Shown: positions 17,000 through 24,249 of the stretch, one piece after another
Layout: each line of letters starts with the position of its first letter
Numbering within the stretch: the stretch's first letter is position 1
Assembly: GCA_017469935.1 (NCBI GenBank)
Contig: JAFUFL010000074.1
Location: 1 to 64,000, forward strand
Direction of reading: 5' to 3'
DNA length: 64,000 nucleotides
Source of the DNA: Lachnospiraceae bacterium
GTDB taxonomy: Bacteria > Bacillota > Clostridia > Lachnospirales > Lachnospiraceae
Translations under genes and position numbers: made by a program
The notes under the pieces: model-generated
The model's input: the letters and a program-made list of their open reading frames with translations, nothing else
What the model was told of the DNA's origin: nothing
Databases searched by the model: none

Positions 17000-17350
17000 T
17001 CAGTCATTGTCATCGCGATGGGACCGCAGCTGTGAGTACATGTTCAGATAGGTGAGAAGAAGCCGCTGCTCCTCGGTGTCATGGGCGCGAAGAATTTCCA
17101 AAATACAGGACGGAAGCAGAAGTGAGACGTCGTCGCTGCCGGTTCCCTTGAGCAGATAGTCGAGACTGCAATGAAAATAATCGCTGAGAAAAAGATATTT
17201 TTCCAGCGAAAAGAGAGCGGCTCCGCGCTCTGCGTGGCTGACGTGTTTTACGGAACAATCCAGCAGTTCGGCCAGTTTTTCCTGGGTCAGACCGTTTACA
17301 CTCCTGAGGTATGAAATTCTTTTACCGATTTCGGCTTTGTAGTTGTCCAT
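17000..17350 (-). CDS. XRE-family transcriptional regulator
   Basis: A 116-residue protein with an N-terminal Cro/cI-type helix-turn-helix (RISYLRSVNGLTQEKLAELL, then a recognition helix around VSHAERG, about residues 10-65) and a short C-terminal region. The start at 17350 is preferred because GGAGAAG lies just upstream; the frame extends 18 codons further without a better site. Its promoter region abuts a strong plus-strand promoter (17413-17441), and a shared self-palindromic TTGCAA could act as -35 for both directions. Target genes are unknown; that divergent transcript is the obvious candidate. Confidence 0.82.
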   Translation of the reverse strand: MDNYKAEIGKRISYLRSVNGLTQEKLAELLDCSVKHVSHAERGAALFSLEKYLFLSDYFHCSLDYLLKGTGSDDVSLLLPSCILEILRAHDTEEQRLLLTYLNMYSQLRSHRDDND

Positions 17351-17412
17351 AGTTCTTCTCCACGAACTAATTTTATGAAGTTTAGAACTTTGATAAAACA
17401 ACATATAAGGTT

Positions 17413-19810: not shown

Positions 19811-20353
19811 TCATTTAGGGTTCGGGAATGGCAAGGTCTCCCTGGAAAGGAAGCGGCTGTCGCATTCAAAGGGAAGGGGAACGTCGATTCCCCTGCTGCG
19901 CATGCTTCGAAGCTTGAAATTCATAAGTCCCGGCGTTGTGCCCAGGGCCAGGCAGAGGCTGTCGAGATCCGACCGGGACGCACCCGCCGTATCCATCACT
20001 TCCTCGTCCGGAAGAAGAAGGTCCGCGGCGAACAGATTGGCCTCGTACTCGGTGCTGCTGCGCTTGTCGTAGACCGCCGTATCAAAGAGCGGGGCAGTCT
20101 TGAGTTCCTGCGCGTGCAGCACAATGTGGCCAAGTTCATGGGCTGCCACGATCCGCTGCTCGTACAGAGGAAGATTTCCGTTCAGGCCGACAAAATACTG
20201 CCGCAGCATATAGCGGGTAAATCCCTTGGTGTGCGTCAGGTCATAATAAAAGCGGACCTGCACGTGCATGGCGCTCAGAAGTTCGAAAGGGTCGCGGGTC
20301 CCGTATCGGCGGATCAGCCCGGCCGCTTTGTGATAGACGTAAAGTCTGCTCAT
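19811..20353 (-). CDS. ImmA/IrrE-family metallo-endopeptidase
   Basis: Zinc peptidase of the family that cleaves XRE-type repressors (ImmA of ICEBs1, IrrE/PprI of Deinococcus). The 180-residue protein has the gluzincin helix HELGH at residues 72-76 and the third-ligand region TEYEANLFAADLLLP about 30 residues later. It follows an XRE gene by 11 bp on the same strand, the usual order for a repressor/anti-repressor pair. Divergent from the pair is a Y-family polymerase with a LexA box. The family call is firm; cleavage of the adjacent XRE protein and a role in the damage response are inferred from this arrangement. Confidence 0.87.
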   Translation of the reverse strand: MSRLYVYHKAAGLIRRYGTRDPFELLSAMHVQVRFYYDLTHTKGFTRYMLRQYFVGLNGNLPLYEQRIVAAHELGHIVLHAQELKTAPLFDTAVYDKRSSTEYEANLFAADLLLPDEEVMDTAGASRSDLDSLCLALGTTPGLMNFKLRSMRSRGIDVPLPFECDSRFLSRETLPFPNPK

Positions 20354-20364
20354 AGGCCGCCTCC

Positions 20365-20985
20365 TCAGACATTCCCTTCGGAGGAAGCAGTGCCGTGCGG
20401 CGGCGGATTACCCGCGTTTTCCGGATCCGGGCCGATGCCGGCGGAAGTGCTCTGCGCATTTTCCGGATCCGGGCCGGTGCCGGCGGAAGTGCTCTGCGTA
20501 TTTTCCGGATTCGGACCGGTGCCGGCGGAAGCGCTCTGCGCGTTTTCGGGATCCGAACCGGTGCCGGCGGGAGCGGCCTGCCCGCCCCTGTATTTGCCGG
20601 GCGTGAATTTCCGGGCATTTTCCTTGGCTTCCCAGAACATTTCCATAAAATGCTTCCCGATCATGTCTATGTCTTCGGGAGAGAGGTCGCCTCCGGCGAA
20701 CATGGCGCGGGTGCTGTCGAGAAAGGCCTGCGCCTGCTGCCGGCCGCGCGTGCCGTACTTCTCCTGTGCTCTTGTCACAAACAGTTCCTGTTCGCCCCTG
20801 AGATATTCTTCACTGCATCCGAGGGCGGAAGCCAGCCGGGCATAGAGAGCCTGGCTGCGCGGATATTTGCCTTCCGTCTCCCAGTTGCGCACGGTGCGCC
20901 TGGTCACACCCGTCATCGCGGCCAGCTCTTCCTGGGAATAGCCGTTCTTTATGCGAAGTTCCCTGACTTTTTCTCCGAAAGTCAT
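20365..20985 (-). CDS. XRE-family regulator paired with ImmA, with a 14-residue repeat tail
   Basis: The 206-residue protein has a Cro/cI helix-turn-helix at residues 1-60 (LRIKNGYSQEELAAMTGVTR), a middle helical segment around SPEDIDMIGKHFMEMFWEAKENARKF, and a tail of four tandem 14-residue units of the type AGTGPDPENAQSTS. The tail is encoded by 42-bp direct repeats. Likely represses its own operon and possibly the divergent dinB through palindromes at 21037-21172. The tail may be the site where ImmA acts, or only a spacer; this is not decidable here. The start has GGAGTACAGAGC upstream, a modest ribosome site. Confidence 0.83.
   Translation of the reverse strand: MTFGEKVRELRIKNGYSQEELAAMTGVTRRTVRNWETEGKYPRSQALYARLASALGCSEEYLRGEQELFVTRAQEKYGTRGRQQAQAFLDSTRAMFAGGDLSPEDIDMIGKHFMEMFWEAKENARKFTPGKYRGGQAAPAGTGSDPENAQSASAGTGPNPENTQSTSAGTGPDPENAQSTSAGIGPDPENAGNPPPHGTASSEGNV
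20411..20578. repeat. Four tandem 42-bp repeats inside the XRE gene
   Basis: The plus-strand unit begins TTTTCCGGATCCGGGCC and is repeated at about 20417, 20459, 20501 and 20543. The first two copies are nearly identical and the last is more diverged. All changes keep the reading frame. Confidence 0.8.
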
Positions 20986-21036
20986 GCTCTGTACTCCTTG
21001 TATTTTATGAGATGTATTCTGTGAAAGGTTAGTGGG

Positions 21037-21051
21037 GGAAATTTAATTTCC
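21037..21051. promoter_or_regulatory. Operator-like palindrome O1
   Basis: GGAAATTTAATTTCC, a near-perfect dyad upstream of the XRE gene. Related sequences occur at 21137-21151 and 21158-21172, within the same divergent region. Confidence 0.5.
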
Positions 21052-21097
21052 TCTATTGTAACTTCTGTTTCCGCGTCTGTCAACGCAAAAAAACCCC

Positions 21098-21126
21098 TTG
21101 ACACGAATATACGTTCGAAATATACT
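21098..21126 (+). promoter_or_regulatory. dinB promoter with embedded LexA box
   Basis: Consensus promoter TTGACA (21098-21103), 17 bp, TATACT (21121-21126). The spacer contains CGAATATACGTTCG (21104-21117), which fits the Gram-positive LexA/Din box CGAACRNRYGTTCG at all but one specified position. LexA bound here would block RNA polymerase directly. Confidence 0.8.
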
Positions 21127-21136
21127 GTTTACAAGA

Positions 21137-21172
21137 GGAAATTAAAATTCTTTAGAAGGAAATTTAAATTCC
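21137..21172. promoter_or_regulatory. Operator-like repeats O2 and O3
   Basis: GGAAATTAAAATTCT at 21137-21151 and GGAAATTTAAATTCC at 21158-21172 start 21 bp apart, two helical turns, just downstream of the dinB promoter. They match O1 across the promoter, suggesting sites for the divergent XRE regulator. Confidence 0.5.
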
Positions 21173-21199
21173 TCGGTATTTTGACATCGGGCGGTAATT

Positions 21200-22462
21200 A
21201 TGGACAGAGTGATACTTCACTCGGACTGCAACTGCTTTTATGCCAGTGTCGAGATGCTGCACCATCCCGAACTGGACGGAAAGCCGCTGGCGGTCGGAGG
21301 AGATCCCGAGCAGAGGCACGGGATCATATTGACGGCAAACTATATAGCCAAGAGGGCGGGCGTGAAGACGGGAGAGGCGCTCTGGCAGGCCCGGCAGGCC
21401 TGTCCGGACCTGGTCATCGTTCCCCCGAGGATGGACCTGTACCTGCGCTTTTCGGAGCTGGCAAGGGAGATCTACCGGGATTATTCGGACCTGATGGAGC
21501 CGTACGGCCTCGATGAGTGCTGGATCGACTGCACGCAGAGCGGACAGTGCCTGGGGAGCGGCCCGGAGCTGGCGGAGGAGATCTCCTCCCGGATCAAGCG
21601 GGAGCTGGGGATCACGGTCAGCATCGGGGTCAGCTGGAACAAGATCTTTGCCAAGTTCGGCTCCGATTACCGGAAGCCGGATGCCATTACGGTGATCGAC
21701 AGGGACAATTACAGGCAGATCGTGTGGGAGAGCAACGTGTCGGACCTTCTGTTTGTGGGGAGGGCGACACAGAGGAAGCTCTACCGGTACGGGATCCTCA
21801 CGATCGGGGACCTGGCGCGGACAGATCCGTCTCTTTTGCAGGATATATTCGGGAAGATCGGGCTGGTCCTGTCCGCGTTCGCGAGAGGAGAGGACCGGAC
21901 ACCGGTGGCGCCCGACAGGAGCGAGATCCCCGTTAAGAGCATCGGCAACAGCACGACCACGCCGCGGGACCTGACCTCGGAGCAGGACGTGAAGATGGTG
22001 ATCTACATGCTGGCGGAGAGCGTCGCGTCGCGCCTGCGGCGCCACGGCTTTGTGGGCGATGTGGTGGAGATCTATGTGAGGGATAAGGAGCTGTGCGGCT
22101 TTTGTCGTCAGCACAAGACGGACCTGCCGACAAATATCTCCGAGGAGATCGCCGCGGAGGCCATTCGGCTCTTCAGGGAGAACTATGACTGGAAGAGGCC
22201 GATCCGCAGCCTGGGAGTGAGGGTCTCTCACCTGAAAATGGAGGGCTGTCCGTATCAGCTCAGTCTTTTTACGGATCCGGAGCGGAGAGAGAAGCAGCTG
22301 AAAGCGGATCTGGCGGTGGATGAGATCCGGAGCCGGTTCGGGTCCAAGGCGGTGCGCCGGGGGCTGATGCATGTGGACACGAAACTGTCCGCGGATGACG
22401 CCGAGACCCATGTCGTGCACCCGCACGGCTATTTCGAGAGAGGGAACCGGACGGGCGTCTGA
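21200..22462 (+). CDS. dinB: Y-family DNA polymerase (DinB/Pol IV type)
   Basis: Translesion polymerase that copies damaged templates. The 420-residue protein has the N-terminal metal site Asp9 with the aromatic gate residues FY (HSDCNCFYASVE), the second acidic pair Asp105-Glu106 (YGLDECWID), the GVSWNKIFAKFGSDYRKPD palm segment, and a C-terminal little-finger domain ending without a clear beta-clamp motif, though CPYQLSLF resembles the QLxLF type. The promoter carries a LexA box. A 126-residue gene follows on the same strand, and an XRE/ImmA pair is divergent. The start at 21200 lacks a strong ribosome site (GGGCGGTAATT). The symbol follows the closest family. Confidence 0.9.
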   Translation: MDRVILHSDCNCFYASVEMLHHPELDGKPLAVGGDPEQRHGIILTANYIAKRAGVKTGEALWQARQACPDLVIVPPRMDLYLRFSELAREIYRDYSDLMEPYGLDECWIDCTQSGQCLGSGPELAEEISSRIKRELGITVSIGVSWNKIFAKFGSDYRKPDAITVIDRDNYRQIVWESNVSDLLFVGRATQRKLYRYGILTIGDLARTDPSLLQDIFGKIGLVLSAFARGEDRTPVAPDRSEIPVKSIGNSTTTPRDLTSEQDVKMVIYMLAESVASRLRRHGFVGDVVEIYVRDKELCGFCRQHKTDLPTNISEEIAAEAIRLFRENYDWKRPIRSLGVRVSHLKMEGCPYQLSLFTDPERREKQLKADLAVDEIRSRFGSKAVRRGLMHVDTKLSADDAETHVVHPHGYFERGNRTGV

Positions 22463-22552
22463 CGCTGAACGGTTGCGATATTCCGGAGGGCCGACCGCAC
22501 GCGGCATGGGCGGCTGTCTTCGCGAATCTTTAAGATAAGGAGGGACAATAAG

Positions 22553-22933
22553 ATGCCTCATACAGATACGAATATCAGCAGGGATGCCTTGCAGAGCTAT
22601 GGCATGCAGCCGACAAGGAGACCGGGCGGAGAGCGGCCCGGGTCGATTCGGAGCGGCAGTCCGATCCGGGTTTACGGCGACGGGGAGGAGACAGGCCCGG
22701 CCAAGGTCTATGTGGACGTGCTGGCGGAATTTACCCGCGAGGGATTCCTGAGGCCGTGCCGGATCACATGGGAAGACGGGAGAAAGTATGTGATCGACAG
22801 AGTCAAGAGGTGCGAACGCCGCGCCAGCCGCAAGGCGGGCGGGATGGGGCTCATGTATACCTGCATGGTGGCGGGACAGGAAGTGAACCTCTTTTACGAA
22901 GAAAATCAGAGGTGGTTTGTGACCAGAAAATAA
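22553..22933 (+). CDS. Small conserved-looking protein downstream of dinB
   Basis: The 126-residue product has a disordered N-terminus of about 45 residues (Arg/Gly/Ser-rich) and a compact C-terminal part: VYVDVLAEF, RPCRITWEDGRKYVIDRVK, then MYTCMVAGQEVNLFYEENQRWFV. The 'W-x-GR-x-Y-x-V' pattern recalls small DUF6504-like domains found beside Y-family polymerases in other bacteria; I could not verify this. A good AAGGAGGG ribosome site lies upstream, 90 bp after dinB, so it is probably in the same SOS-type transcript. Function unknown; an accessory factor for the polymerase is a guess from position. Confidence 0.7.
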   Translation: MPHTDTNISRDALQSYGMQPTRRPGGERPGSIRSGSPIRVYGDGEETGPAKVYVDVLAEFTREGFLRPCRITWEDGRKYVIDRVKRCERRASRKAGGMGLMYTCMVAGQEVNLFYEENQRWFVTRK

Positions 22934-22987: not shown

Positions 22988-23067
22988 TTGGTCTGTAGAT
23001 GAAACCATGCGCGAAGGCATACGGGAAAGCGGATGCCGACCGCATGACAGTTTGGAGATCAAATTTT

Positions 23068-24249
23068 ATGAAGACGAAATTTGCAGCAATTATCGGAATG
23101 ATCCTGATCATGACATCGGCTGCGCTGCCCGTACAGGCGGCCGCCGCGGCATCCGATACGGGATTTTCCCGGAGCGGGGCCCTGGCGGAAGGGGTCTCCT
23201 ACGCCGATAAAACGAGGGAATTCCGTTATCTGAGGAACGGATGGTATTTCCTGGACGGAAACTGGTACTACGTCCGCAGCGGAAAGGCGGTCACCGGCTG
23301 GGCGAAATATAACGGCAAGTGGTATTTTCTCGACAAAGAGGGAGTCATGAAGACCGGCTGGATCAGGGACAACGGCAAGTGGTACTATCTGGCGGCGGAA
23401 GGAGAGATGAAGACCGGCTGGCTCAAGGACGGCGGGAAATGGTATTATCTGGCGTCGAACGGAGCGATGAAGACCGGCTGGGTAAAGGTCAGCGGGAAAT
23501 GGTACTATCTGGCGTCGAACGGAGCGATGAAGACCGGCTGGGTGAAGGTCAGGGGACTCTGGTATTATCTGGCGGCAAACGGACAGATGAAGACCGGCTG
23601 GGTGACGGACGGCGGAAAGAAGTATTATCTGACGGCGGGCGGAGCGATGAAGACCGGGTGGCTGCAAGTCGGCGGCAAGAAGTATTACCTGACGTCGAGC
23701 GGAGCGATGAAGACCGGCTGGCTCAAGGACGGCGGCAAAAAATACTATTTTGACACAAACGGAGTACTTAACGAAGAGAAAACGAAAGAGGCGAACGGAG
23801 AAGTGACGGATGCCTCGAAGAAGGCGGAGAGCGGCGCCGCGCAGAGCGCGCAGAAGACTGCGGCGGCGAAGAGCACGCAGAAGACTGCGGTAGCGAAGAC
23901 CAAGGGCGAAATGGTAGCCGCCTACGCGCTTCAGTTTGTGGGCAACCCTTATGTGTACGGCGGATGCAGCCTCACGGAAGGGACGGACTGCTCCGGTTTT
24001 GTAATGCTGATCTACCGCCATTTCGGCGTAAATCTTCCTCACTATGATGCGGCGATCCGCACCAGGGGAAAGAGCGTCCCTTCTCTTAATGAGGCAAAGG
24101 CAGGGGATATCATCTGCTATTACGGGCATGTCGCGATCTATCTGGGAGACGGAAGGATCGTCCACGCGTCCAACAGCAGGGACGGAATAAAGATCAGTGA
24201 GAGAGCGGATTACAGGACCATTGCCGGGATCCGAAGGATCTTCGACTGA
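23068..24249 (+). CDS. Secreted NlpC/P60 endopeptidase with cell-wall-binding repeats
   Basis: The 393-residue exported protein is likely to cut peptide stems of peptidoglycan. A signal peptide (MKTKFAAIIGMILIM... ending near VQA) leads to about nine choline/wall-binding-type repeats of 20 residues (WYYLASNGAMKTGW pattern, residues ~50-235), an Ala/Lys-rich linker, and the C-terminal NlpC/P60 domain with Cys308 (TDCSGF), His354 (GHVAIY) and His366. In the DNA the repeats are 60-bp tandem units from about 23281 to 23760. The ATG at 23068 is chosen because the signal peptide starts there with GGAG upstream; the longer frame from 22999 adds an unlikely charged leader. The gene for a barnase-like lipoprotein follows 17 bp later. 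Confidence 0.9.
   Translation: MKTKFAAIIGMILIMTSAALPVQAAAAASDTGFSRSGALAEGVSYADKTREFRYLRNGWYFLDGNWYYVRSGKAVTGWAKYNGKWYFLDKEGVMKTGWIRDNGKWYYLAAEGEMKTGWLKDGGKWYYLASNGAMKTGWVKVSGKWYYLASNGAMKTGWVKVRGLWYYLAANGQMKTGWVTDGGKKYYLTAGGAMKTGWLQVGGKKYYLTSSGAMKTGWLKDGGKKYYFDTNGVLNEEKTKEANGEVTDASKKAESGAAQSAQKTAAAKSTQKTAVAKTKGEMVAAYALQFVGNPYVYGGCSLTEGTDCSGFVMLIYRHFGVNLPHYDAAIRTRGKSVPSLNEAKAGDIICYYGHVAIYLGDGRIVHASNSRDGIKISERADYRTIAGIRRIFD
23281..23760. repeat. 60-bp tandem repeats coding for wall-binding modules
   Basis: Units beginning GGAGCGATGAAGACCGGCTG recur every 60 bp (23341, 23401, 23461, 23521, 23581, 23641, 23701) with high identity, especially 23461 versus 23521. Such repeats are prone to copy-number change by recombination. 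Confidence 0.88.

Follow-up and report, generated by a model that had tools for sequence, protein, structure and literature searches.

The stretch analysed here, called the window throughout, is 64,000 nucleotides long (positions 1 to 64,000 of contig JAFUFL010000074.1, assembly GCA_017469935.1, from a Lachnospiraceae bacterium) and carries genes for an XRE repressor and an ImmA-type peptidase that face dinB, the gene of a Y-family polymerase, and a small partner gene. Our favoured reading, which we hold with reasonable rather than high confidence, is that XRE-ImmA is a protease-relieved, dedicated repressor of this translesion polymerase, and that this clade adds LexA to give a two-key AND gate. 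We give about even chances to the broader statement that one chromosomal promoter integrates two mutually independent, proteolytic damage sensors, RecA/LexA and XRE/ImmA, as an AND gate on a translesion polymerase, and that XRE-ImmA, XRE-S24 and LexA alone are swapped as interchangeable controls at the polymerase slot in Clostridia. The gene order, the promoters, the sites, their conservation and the exchange of XRE-ImmA and XRE-S24 at this slot are all observed directly in the DNA. An earlier, sequence-only reading of the window had described an operon of a HELGH peptidase and an XRE protein divergent from dinB and a 126-residue gene; the open reading frames lie where it placed them and the Pfam families agree:

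19811..20353, minus strand: immA, ImmA/IrrE-type (M78) metallopeptidase of 180 amino acids (aa), HELGH intact; Pfam Peptidase_M78, 1.1e-15
20365..20985, minus strand: xre, repressor of 206 aa; Pfam HTH_3, 1e-12
20413..20570, minus strand: 42-bp tandem repeat in the xre tail, 3.8 copies, 90% matches
21200..22462, plus strand: dinB, Y-family polymerase of 420 aa, intact; Pfam IMS, 6.1e-43
22553..22933, plus strand: partner gene, 126 aa, small gene after dinB; no Pfam family matched

The genes xre and immA lie on one strand, 11 base pairs (bp) apart, and diverge from dinB and the partner gene, with 214 bp shared between the two operons; adjacent XRE and M78 HExxH genes on one strand are the arrangement of an XRE-ImmA (COG2856) pair. 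In ImmA, residues H72, E73, H76 and E102 are invariant among 17 aligned proteins. The M78 domain (PF06114, which we take to be the family once named DUF955) is the only one in its 180 aa, and a GAF-type domain was not matched by Pfam at E up to 1. Residues ~1-150 of XRE are conserved among sister species and its tail is repetitive, lengthened in the source genome by the 42-bp repeat, from which the aligned sister XREs are free. The C-terminal domain of the XRE model is helical, and the residues A97 G98 G99, invariant among 17 aligned XREs, begin a loop between two long predicted helices. Among the fold matches of XRE at E ~0.002-0.003 are the ImmR DNA-binding domain and that of CapH (its N-terminal domain); whole DdrO also appears there, with a poor overall fit (root-mean-square deviation 11.5). 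The IMS domains and the catalytic residues D9, D105 and E106, invariant in 13 aligned sequences, point to DNA polymerase IV of the Y family as the dinB product. NCBIfam agrees in that PRK02406 (DNA polymerase IV) scores above its cut-off, and the top-scoring PRK03103 falls 10 bits below its own. Close to the C terminus of the polymerase is a QLSLF motif, which we take to be of the clamp type.

The shared region holds two good promoters pointing away from each other, from whose -10 positions we deduced the start points of xre and dinB, together with the following elements:

21055..21083, minus strand: xre-immA promoter TTGACA-17-TACAAT (-35 at 21083-21078, -10 at 21060-21055)
21098..21126, plus strand: dinB promoter TTGACA-17-TATACT (-35 at 21098-21103, -10 at 21121-21126)
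21104..21117, no strand: LexA-type box CGAATATACGTTCG, filling most of the dinB -35/-10 spacer
21035..21053, no strand: O3, candidate XRE operator, covering the predicted xre start point
21135..21153, no strand: O1, candidate XRE operator, at the predicted dinB start point
21156..21174, no strand: O2, candidate XRE operator in the dinB leader, 21 bp from O1

The LexA box that the sequence-only reading had placed in the dinB promoter is thus there, as CGAATATACGTTCG between -35 and -10. Its three related palindromes also stand far above chance: the 19-mer palindrome has 4 matches at up to 3 mismatches (three sites, one of them on both strands), compared with 0.01 expected from shuffles. Their description needs correcting in two respects, as they reach 2 bp beyond the proposed 21037-21172 on each side, and the two on the dinB side sit at or after the predicted start point, in the leader. 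A conserved palindrome, O3, lies over the predicted promoter of xre-immA itself. Across the window, CGAATATACGTTCG alone matches CGAACN4GTTCG with no more than 1 mismatch; sites within 2 mismatches are at chance level (30, with 35.7 expected).

Conservation was examined in 61 genomes of the genus, taken from a larger group. Of these, 10 (the source genome included) have close XRE and ImmA homologues and 12 have close dinB, generic helix-turn-helix matches being left out of account; in a differently composed set of 61 relatives, the partner was found in 18 at any distance. Conservation of the four-gene order in relatives had been named beforehand as a test that could refute the idea, and the order recurs in 9 sister species besides the window, with dinB and the partner at a contig edge in 2 more. 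Across 10 aligned sister regions, identity to the window is 100% for the -35, 99% for the LexA-type box and 98% for the -10 of dinB, 90% for O3, 86% for O1, 73% for the xre promoter stretch and 69% for O2, compared with 42% for the remaining 99 spacer positions.

Counted genome-wide with a degenerate pattern, LexA boxes gave a weak signal (15 matches versus 8 for the reversed control), so we turned to the upstream regions of recA and lexA themselves. All 11 lexA loci and all 12 recA loci read have a LexA-type box there within 1 mismatch, and at up to 2 mismatches there are three boxes per lexA locus and a second recA box in 11/12. A lexA gene scored above cut-off in 11/12 genomes, the other being G084. 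The conserved promoter box of dinB, taken with those that this group carries at lexA and recA, suggests that dinB belongs to the LexA/SOS regulon.

The exact operator pattern occurs in the 3.55-Mb genome at this locus only (O3 on both strands and O2), and the predicted XRE regulon is therefore this one locus. Allowing one mismatch adds O1 and the other strand of O2, along with 16 matches elsewhere (11 for the reversed control). A genome-wide repair regulon of the DdrO kind was considered and rejected, the exact operator being absent elsewhere in the genome.

We also compared operators with the XRE residues that we take, from general knowledge of the fold, to occupy the recognition-helix position. 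XREs with RT(V/I)R(N/G)WE (the window, L185, L201 and L036) have 4, 4, 2 and 4 GGAAAT half-sites, the latter three proteins being 42-50% identical to the window XRE, and those with RSLYTYE (L029, L106 and L268, which are mutually related) have 6, 5 and 4 ACTTCCG sites. Repeated 9-mers exceeded all 100 shuffles in 6 of 11 regions (the window, L171, L106, L187, L197 and L201); they differ in sequence between regions, with one motif shared by L171 and L106. Operators thus tend to change along with the recognition helix, as far as these regions indicate. Since gene order, palindromes and LexA-type box are conserved, no other place in the genome has the exact operator pattern, and operators tend to track the XRE helix, the two circuits probably meet at this dinB promoter.

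In the mechanism that we propose, XRE would act as a dedicated local repressor of the dinB locus, limiting its own operon from O3 and shutting off polymerase and partner from O1 and O2 at the dinB start point. ImmA would be the antirepressor, activated by a damage signal for which single-stranded DNA, the activator of PprI and CapP, is the likeliest candidate. Once active, ImmA would cleave XRE within its C-terminal helical domain, probably in or close to the loop with the invariant AGG (~residues 96-99), and so free dinB; we propose this position because AGG lies at the inter-helix loop of that domain and because of the ImmR, CapH and DdrO fold matches. LexA would bind a second site inside the same promoter, so that full dinB expression in this clade would need both LexA self-cleavage (via RecA) and XRE cleavage (via ImmA). 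AND is proposed as the simplest logic, since LexA and XRE sites are both at the dinB promoter. Polymerase and beta-domain partner would then work jointly at lesions.

Several known systems offer parallels. The strongest analogy for the role of XRE-ImmA appears to be HdiR, a dedicated phage-type repressor of itself and a UmuC homologue in Lactococcus and Streptococcus (PMC8565304), because a UmuC homologue is its target, it is a self-cleaving repressor broadly of the XRE-S24 type, and XRE-S24 genes occupy the corresponding position here (31 of the best 80 dinB relatives). The difference is that HdiR cuts itself with RecA, whereas here cleavage would fall to a separate ImmA, and a LexA site is also present. 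DdrO/IrrE (PprI) likewise combines an XRE repressor with an M78 peptidase, and DdrO operators lie near or over start points (PMC8072749), as do O1-O3. In Deinococcus, however, the two responses coexist with LexA on the translesion cassette and DdrO on other repair genes (PMC8072749); DdrO runs a regulon, whereas the predicted regulon here is one locus with both controls at one promoter and a 180-aa peptidase of M78 domain only. ImmR/ImmA of ICEBs1, also an XRE + ImmA pair and represented among the fold matches by the ImmR DNA-binding domain, governs an excising element (PMC8072749) rather than a chromosomal polymerase. Single-stranded DNA activates PprI and CapP to cut their repressors (PMC10904395); CapH/CapP of CBASS, whose CapH N-terminal domain is a fold match, resembles the present pair in being a repressor cut by such a peptidase (PMC10904395) and differs in controlling an immune operon. 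The neighbourhood itself is partly known since 2013, when ImuB-C, DinB and DUF955 peptidases were linked by gene neighbourhood (Aravind 2013, PMC3765255), and ImuB-C was later placed beside two YqjH subgroups, mostly in Clostridia (Timinskas 2019, PMC6511836). The same gene kinds stand side by side in both papers; a word search finds no 'XRE' in either main text, and operators and dual control do not appear in the parts covered. Among the titles and abstract beginnings listed from the open-licence literature, a scope that leaves subscription papers mostly outside, no XRE-ImmA control of a Y-family polymerase is described.

To place the locus more widely, we scanned named genomes for dinB relatives and took the best 80 of 567 confirmed loci, a sample of nearest relatives in which some loci share one genome (e.g. 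L203/L206/L229). Classes of repressor rest on profiles built from genus loci and six S24 proteins, and a Pfam check on 8 loci altogether agreed for S24 in 4/4 proteins and for M78 in 4/4. The divergent neighbour of dinB was XRE+ImmA in 11 loci (9 once near-identical rows were merged; Pseudoflavonifractor sp. An44, L201, among them), HdiR-like XRE-S24 in 31, neither in 31 and a contig end in 7. A genus set of 26 loci, partly selected by partner or by XRE/ImmA, gave XRE+ImmA 11, XRE-S24 7, neither 4, XRE only 1 and contig end 3. A quick dinB tree, in which 37 of the 94 internal branches are weak, requires no fewer than 6 changes of the XRE+ImmA state and no fewer than 17 among the three states. 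LexA-type boxes, counted at up to 2 of 10 mismatches in the 350 bp upstream of dinB, occur among the best 80 in 26/31 loci with neither repressor, 3/31 with XRE-S24 and 5/11 with XRE+ImmA (~14% expected by chance, by hand arithmetic). After 9 duplicate rows were merged, the contrast between XRE-S24 and no repressor was 3/35 versus 27/34 (Fisher p 1.3e-9, relatedness ignored). In L197 the LexA-like GAACGTGTGTTC lies within the dinB -35/-10 spacer, as in the window.

Several results weigh against the two-key reading. Dual control by LexA and XRE-ImmA is, on the sequences compared, not general and special to few clades, because most XRE-ImmA/dinB loci elsewhere are without a LexA-type box; the earlier idea that LexA/RecA and XRE/ImmA join at one polymerase thus probably holds here, with its conserved box and palindromes, but not as a rule (4/11 named loci have a box within 1 mismatch, 5/11 within 2). 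The contrast in box frequency between XRE+ImmA and no repressor is not significant (11/18 versus 27/34, p 0.20), and once relatedness is taken into account, the exclusion between any local repressor and a LexA box is no more than suggestive (median p 0.125 in a sign test). The dinB box is one base off consensus, O2 is less conserved than the other operators, and several sister regions are closely related, so that conservation does not amount to ten independent tests. The repeat test was reached by shuffles in five regions (of 100: L185 8, L189 4, L194 68, L203 40, L036 14), and GGAAAT sites also occur without the RT(V/I)R(N/G)WE helix (L187 2, L197 1, and L268 3 in a 1,260-bp region). L036 has an XRE, with its ImmA ~10 kb away. 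Finally, binding, cleavage, signal, damage response, AND logic and the polymerase-partner complex are steps that we infer, which counts against the reading as well.

ImmA keeps company with Y-family polymerases beyond this locus. With the ImmA of the window as query, hence not a random sample of XRE-ImmA pairs, 34 matches were found in the 61 genus genomes (own included), 24 of them within ~1.3 kb of a Y-family polymerase gene: 13 beside dinB and 11 beside a UmuC-like gene, the latter recognized by a profile that was derived from seven of the same loci and not checked against Pfam. Among the other 10 matches, an XRE accompanies six, of which four are interrupted by the end of a contig on the ImmA side, and the profiles detect none beside the other four. 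In 17 upstream regions read here, no LexA-type box was found within 1 mismatch, and 4 regions have one within 2. L118-L120 and L257 have UmuC-like genes and a separate XRE-ImmA operon; by eye, AAAGTTCC repeats stand at both the umuC and xre promoters in L118-L120, and at the umuC promoter and upstream of xre in L257.

On viral contigs, the best 80 of 326 ImmA relatives were surveyed, and the flanking DNA examined contains a Y-polymerase in 12. All but two of these 12 (10 loci, three apparently one element) have the partner gene in the operon of XRE and ImmA, which dinB faces. The viral-contig loci in which the partner travels with the peptidase, not the polymerase, include L273, L278, L283, L285, L288, L302, L306 and L310; in L281 and L282 a partner-like gene directly faces XRE-ImmA, with no polymerase detected by profiles. 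Plasmids gave 9 matches, of which 4 were examined: dinB faces XRE-ImmA on Monoglobus pectinilyticus plasmid 12 (L352), Monoglobus plasmid 5 has XRE-ImmA ~1 kb ahead of Pol IV, pRUMAL02 has XRE-ImmA followed by an annotated 'DNA repair protein' and a YolD-like gene, and on a Vescimonas plasmid the stretch examined shows XRE-ImmA but no annotated polymerase gene. L352 also carries predicted tetracycline-resistance genes a few kb from dinB/XRE-ImmA and a second ImmA gene beyond dinB. The XRE-ImmA and polymerase genes, judged from these arrangements, stay together across rearrangement and mobility. The module is likely of mobile origin, because it is also found on plasmids and phage-like contigs, and the window copy looks domesticated; the absence of mobile-element genes remarked on earlier fits this locus but does not extend to the module elsewhere.

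Of the competing explanations, the one we take most seriously, while considering it unlikely, is that XRE-ImmA alone acts at dinB, the LexA-like box being either a weak site or the remnant of a promoter once under LexA control. The single departure from consensus would suit a relic, as would the rarity of boxes at XRE-S24 loci (3/31) and their prevalence at repressor-less ones (26/31) among the best 80. Yet across the 10 sister regions the box keeps 99% identity against 42% for the other spacer positions, and recA and lexA likewise carry boxes with one mismatch.

We regard it as improbable that XRE-ImmA is a mobile-element leftover, a switch governing only itself with dinB as an accidental neighbour. 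Such pairs are known as element switches (ImmR/ImmA; PMC8072749), related modules sit on plasmids and phage-like contigs, 1 of the 4 plasmid matches examined has XRE-ImmA without an annotated polymerase, and 68 of the best 80 viral ImmA loci have no Y-polymerase in the flanking DNA examined. An accidental neighbour, however, would not readily account for O1 and O2, conserved at the dinB start point, for the recurrent pairing with Y-family polymerases, or for XRE, ImmA, dinB and partner together in another order in 10 of the best 80 viral loci (three apparently one element). We also set this explanation low for this locus because the neighbourhood is conserved: barstar-like, phosphatase and 24267-24938 genes lie downstream in 11/11 sister loci read, cbp in 10/11, and coaX/coaBC lie on the other side in 5/9 sister loci with all four genes. 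Least probable of all, to our minds, is a toxin-antitoxin pair beside dinB. Some metallopeptidase/XRE pairs have been described as such (PMC10538038), and NCBIfam gives weak matches to a repressor/antitoxin family that, at 31.5 and 25.7 bits, fall far short of its cut-off of 335. The gene order, the exchange with XRE-S24 and the palindromes conserved at both promoters are instead in keeping with regulation.

The partner gene follows the polymerase in 69 of the best 80 named loci (summed tallies), and its product is perhaps a standalone ImuB-C-like subunit. Being a small beta-rich protein encoded beside a translesion polymerase, it shares that feature of standalone ImuB-C: in the AlphaFold model, residues 1-47 have low confidence, and a domain of six strands is predicted confidently from residue 50 onward. 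Aligned by hhalign with Deinococcus deserti ImuB-C, the partner (A2) is in register, at E 0.004 and a weak probability of 8. A 91-row partner profile matched 6 Deinococcus ImuB-C rows at E 0.048 with a score of 16.0, compared with 16.3 (E 0.12) for an unrelated xre control and E 0.82 for an immA control. The Deinococcus ImuB-C used in the comparison is annotated DUF6504, and Pfam DUF6504 was found in 0/21 partner family members and 0/196 class genomes. YolD (PF08863) was not among the matches of the 21 members at E up to 10, and the PDB gave no significant match (best sequence E 0.58, no fold match at E <= 0.001).

If the two-key reading is correct, SOS and an IrrE-like response, usually viewed as separate, would be wired into one mutagenic gene, an unusual mode of mutation control in which two damage-sensing switches act on one error-prone polymerase. 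A group of ImmA/XRE pairs in Clostridia would gain a likely target, the Y-family polymerase. LexA alone, XRE-S24, XRE-ImmA and XRE-ImmA with LexA would form a natural series that asks why bacteria alter the licensing of mutagenesis.

Around the four genes, a second small XRE gene lies at 17000-17404 of the window and is retained in several sister loci, and a gene for a choline-binding NlpC/P60 protein (22999-24249) lies downstream of the partner.

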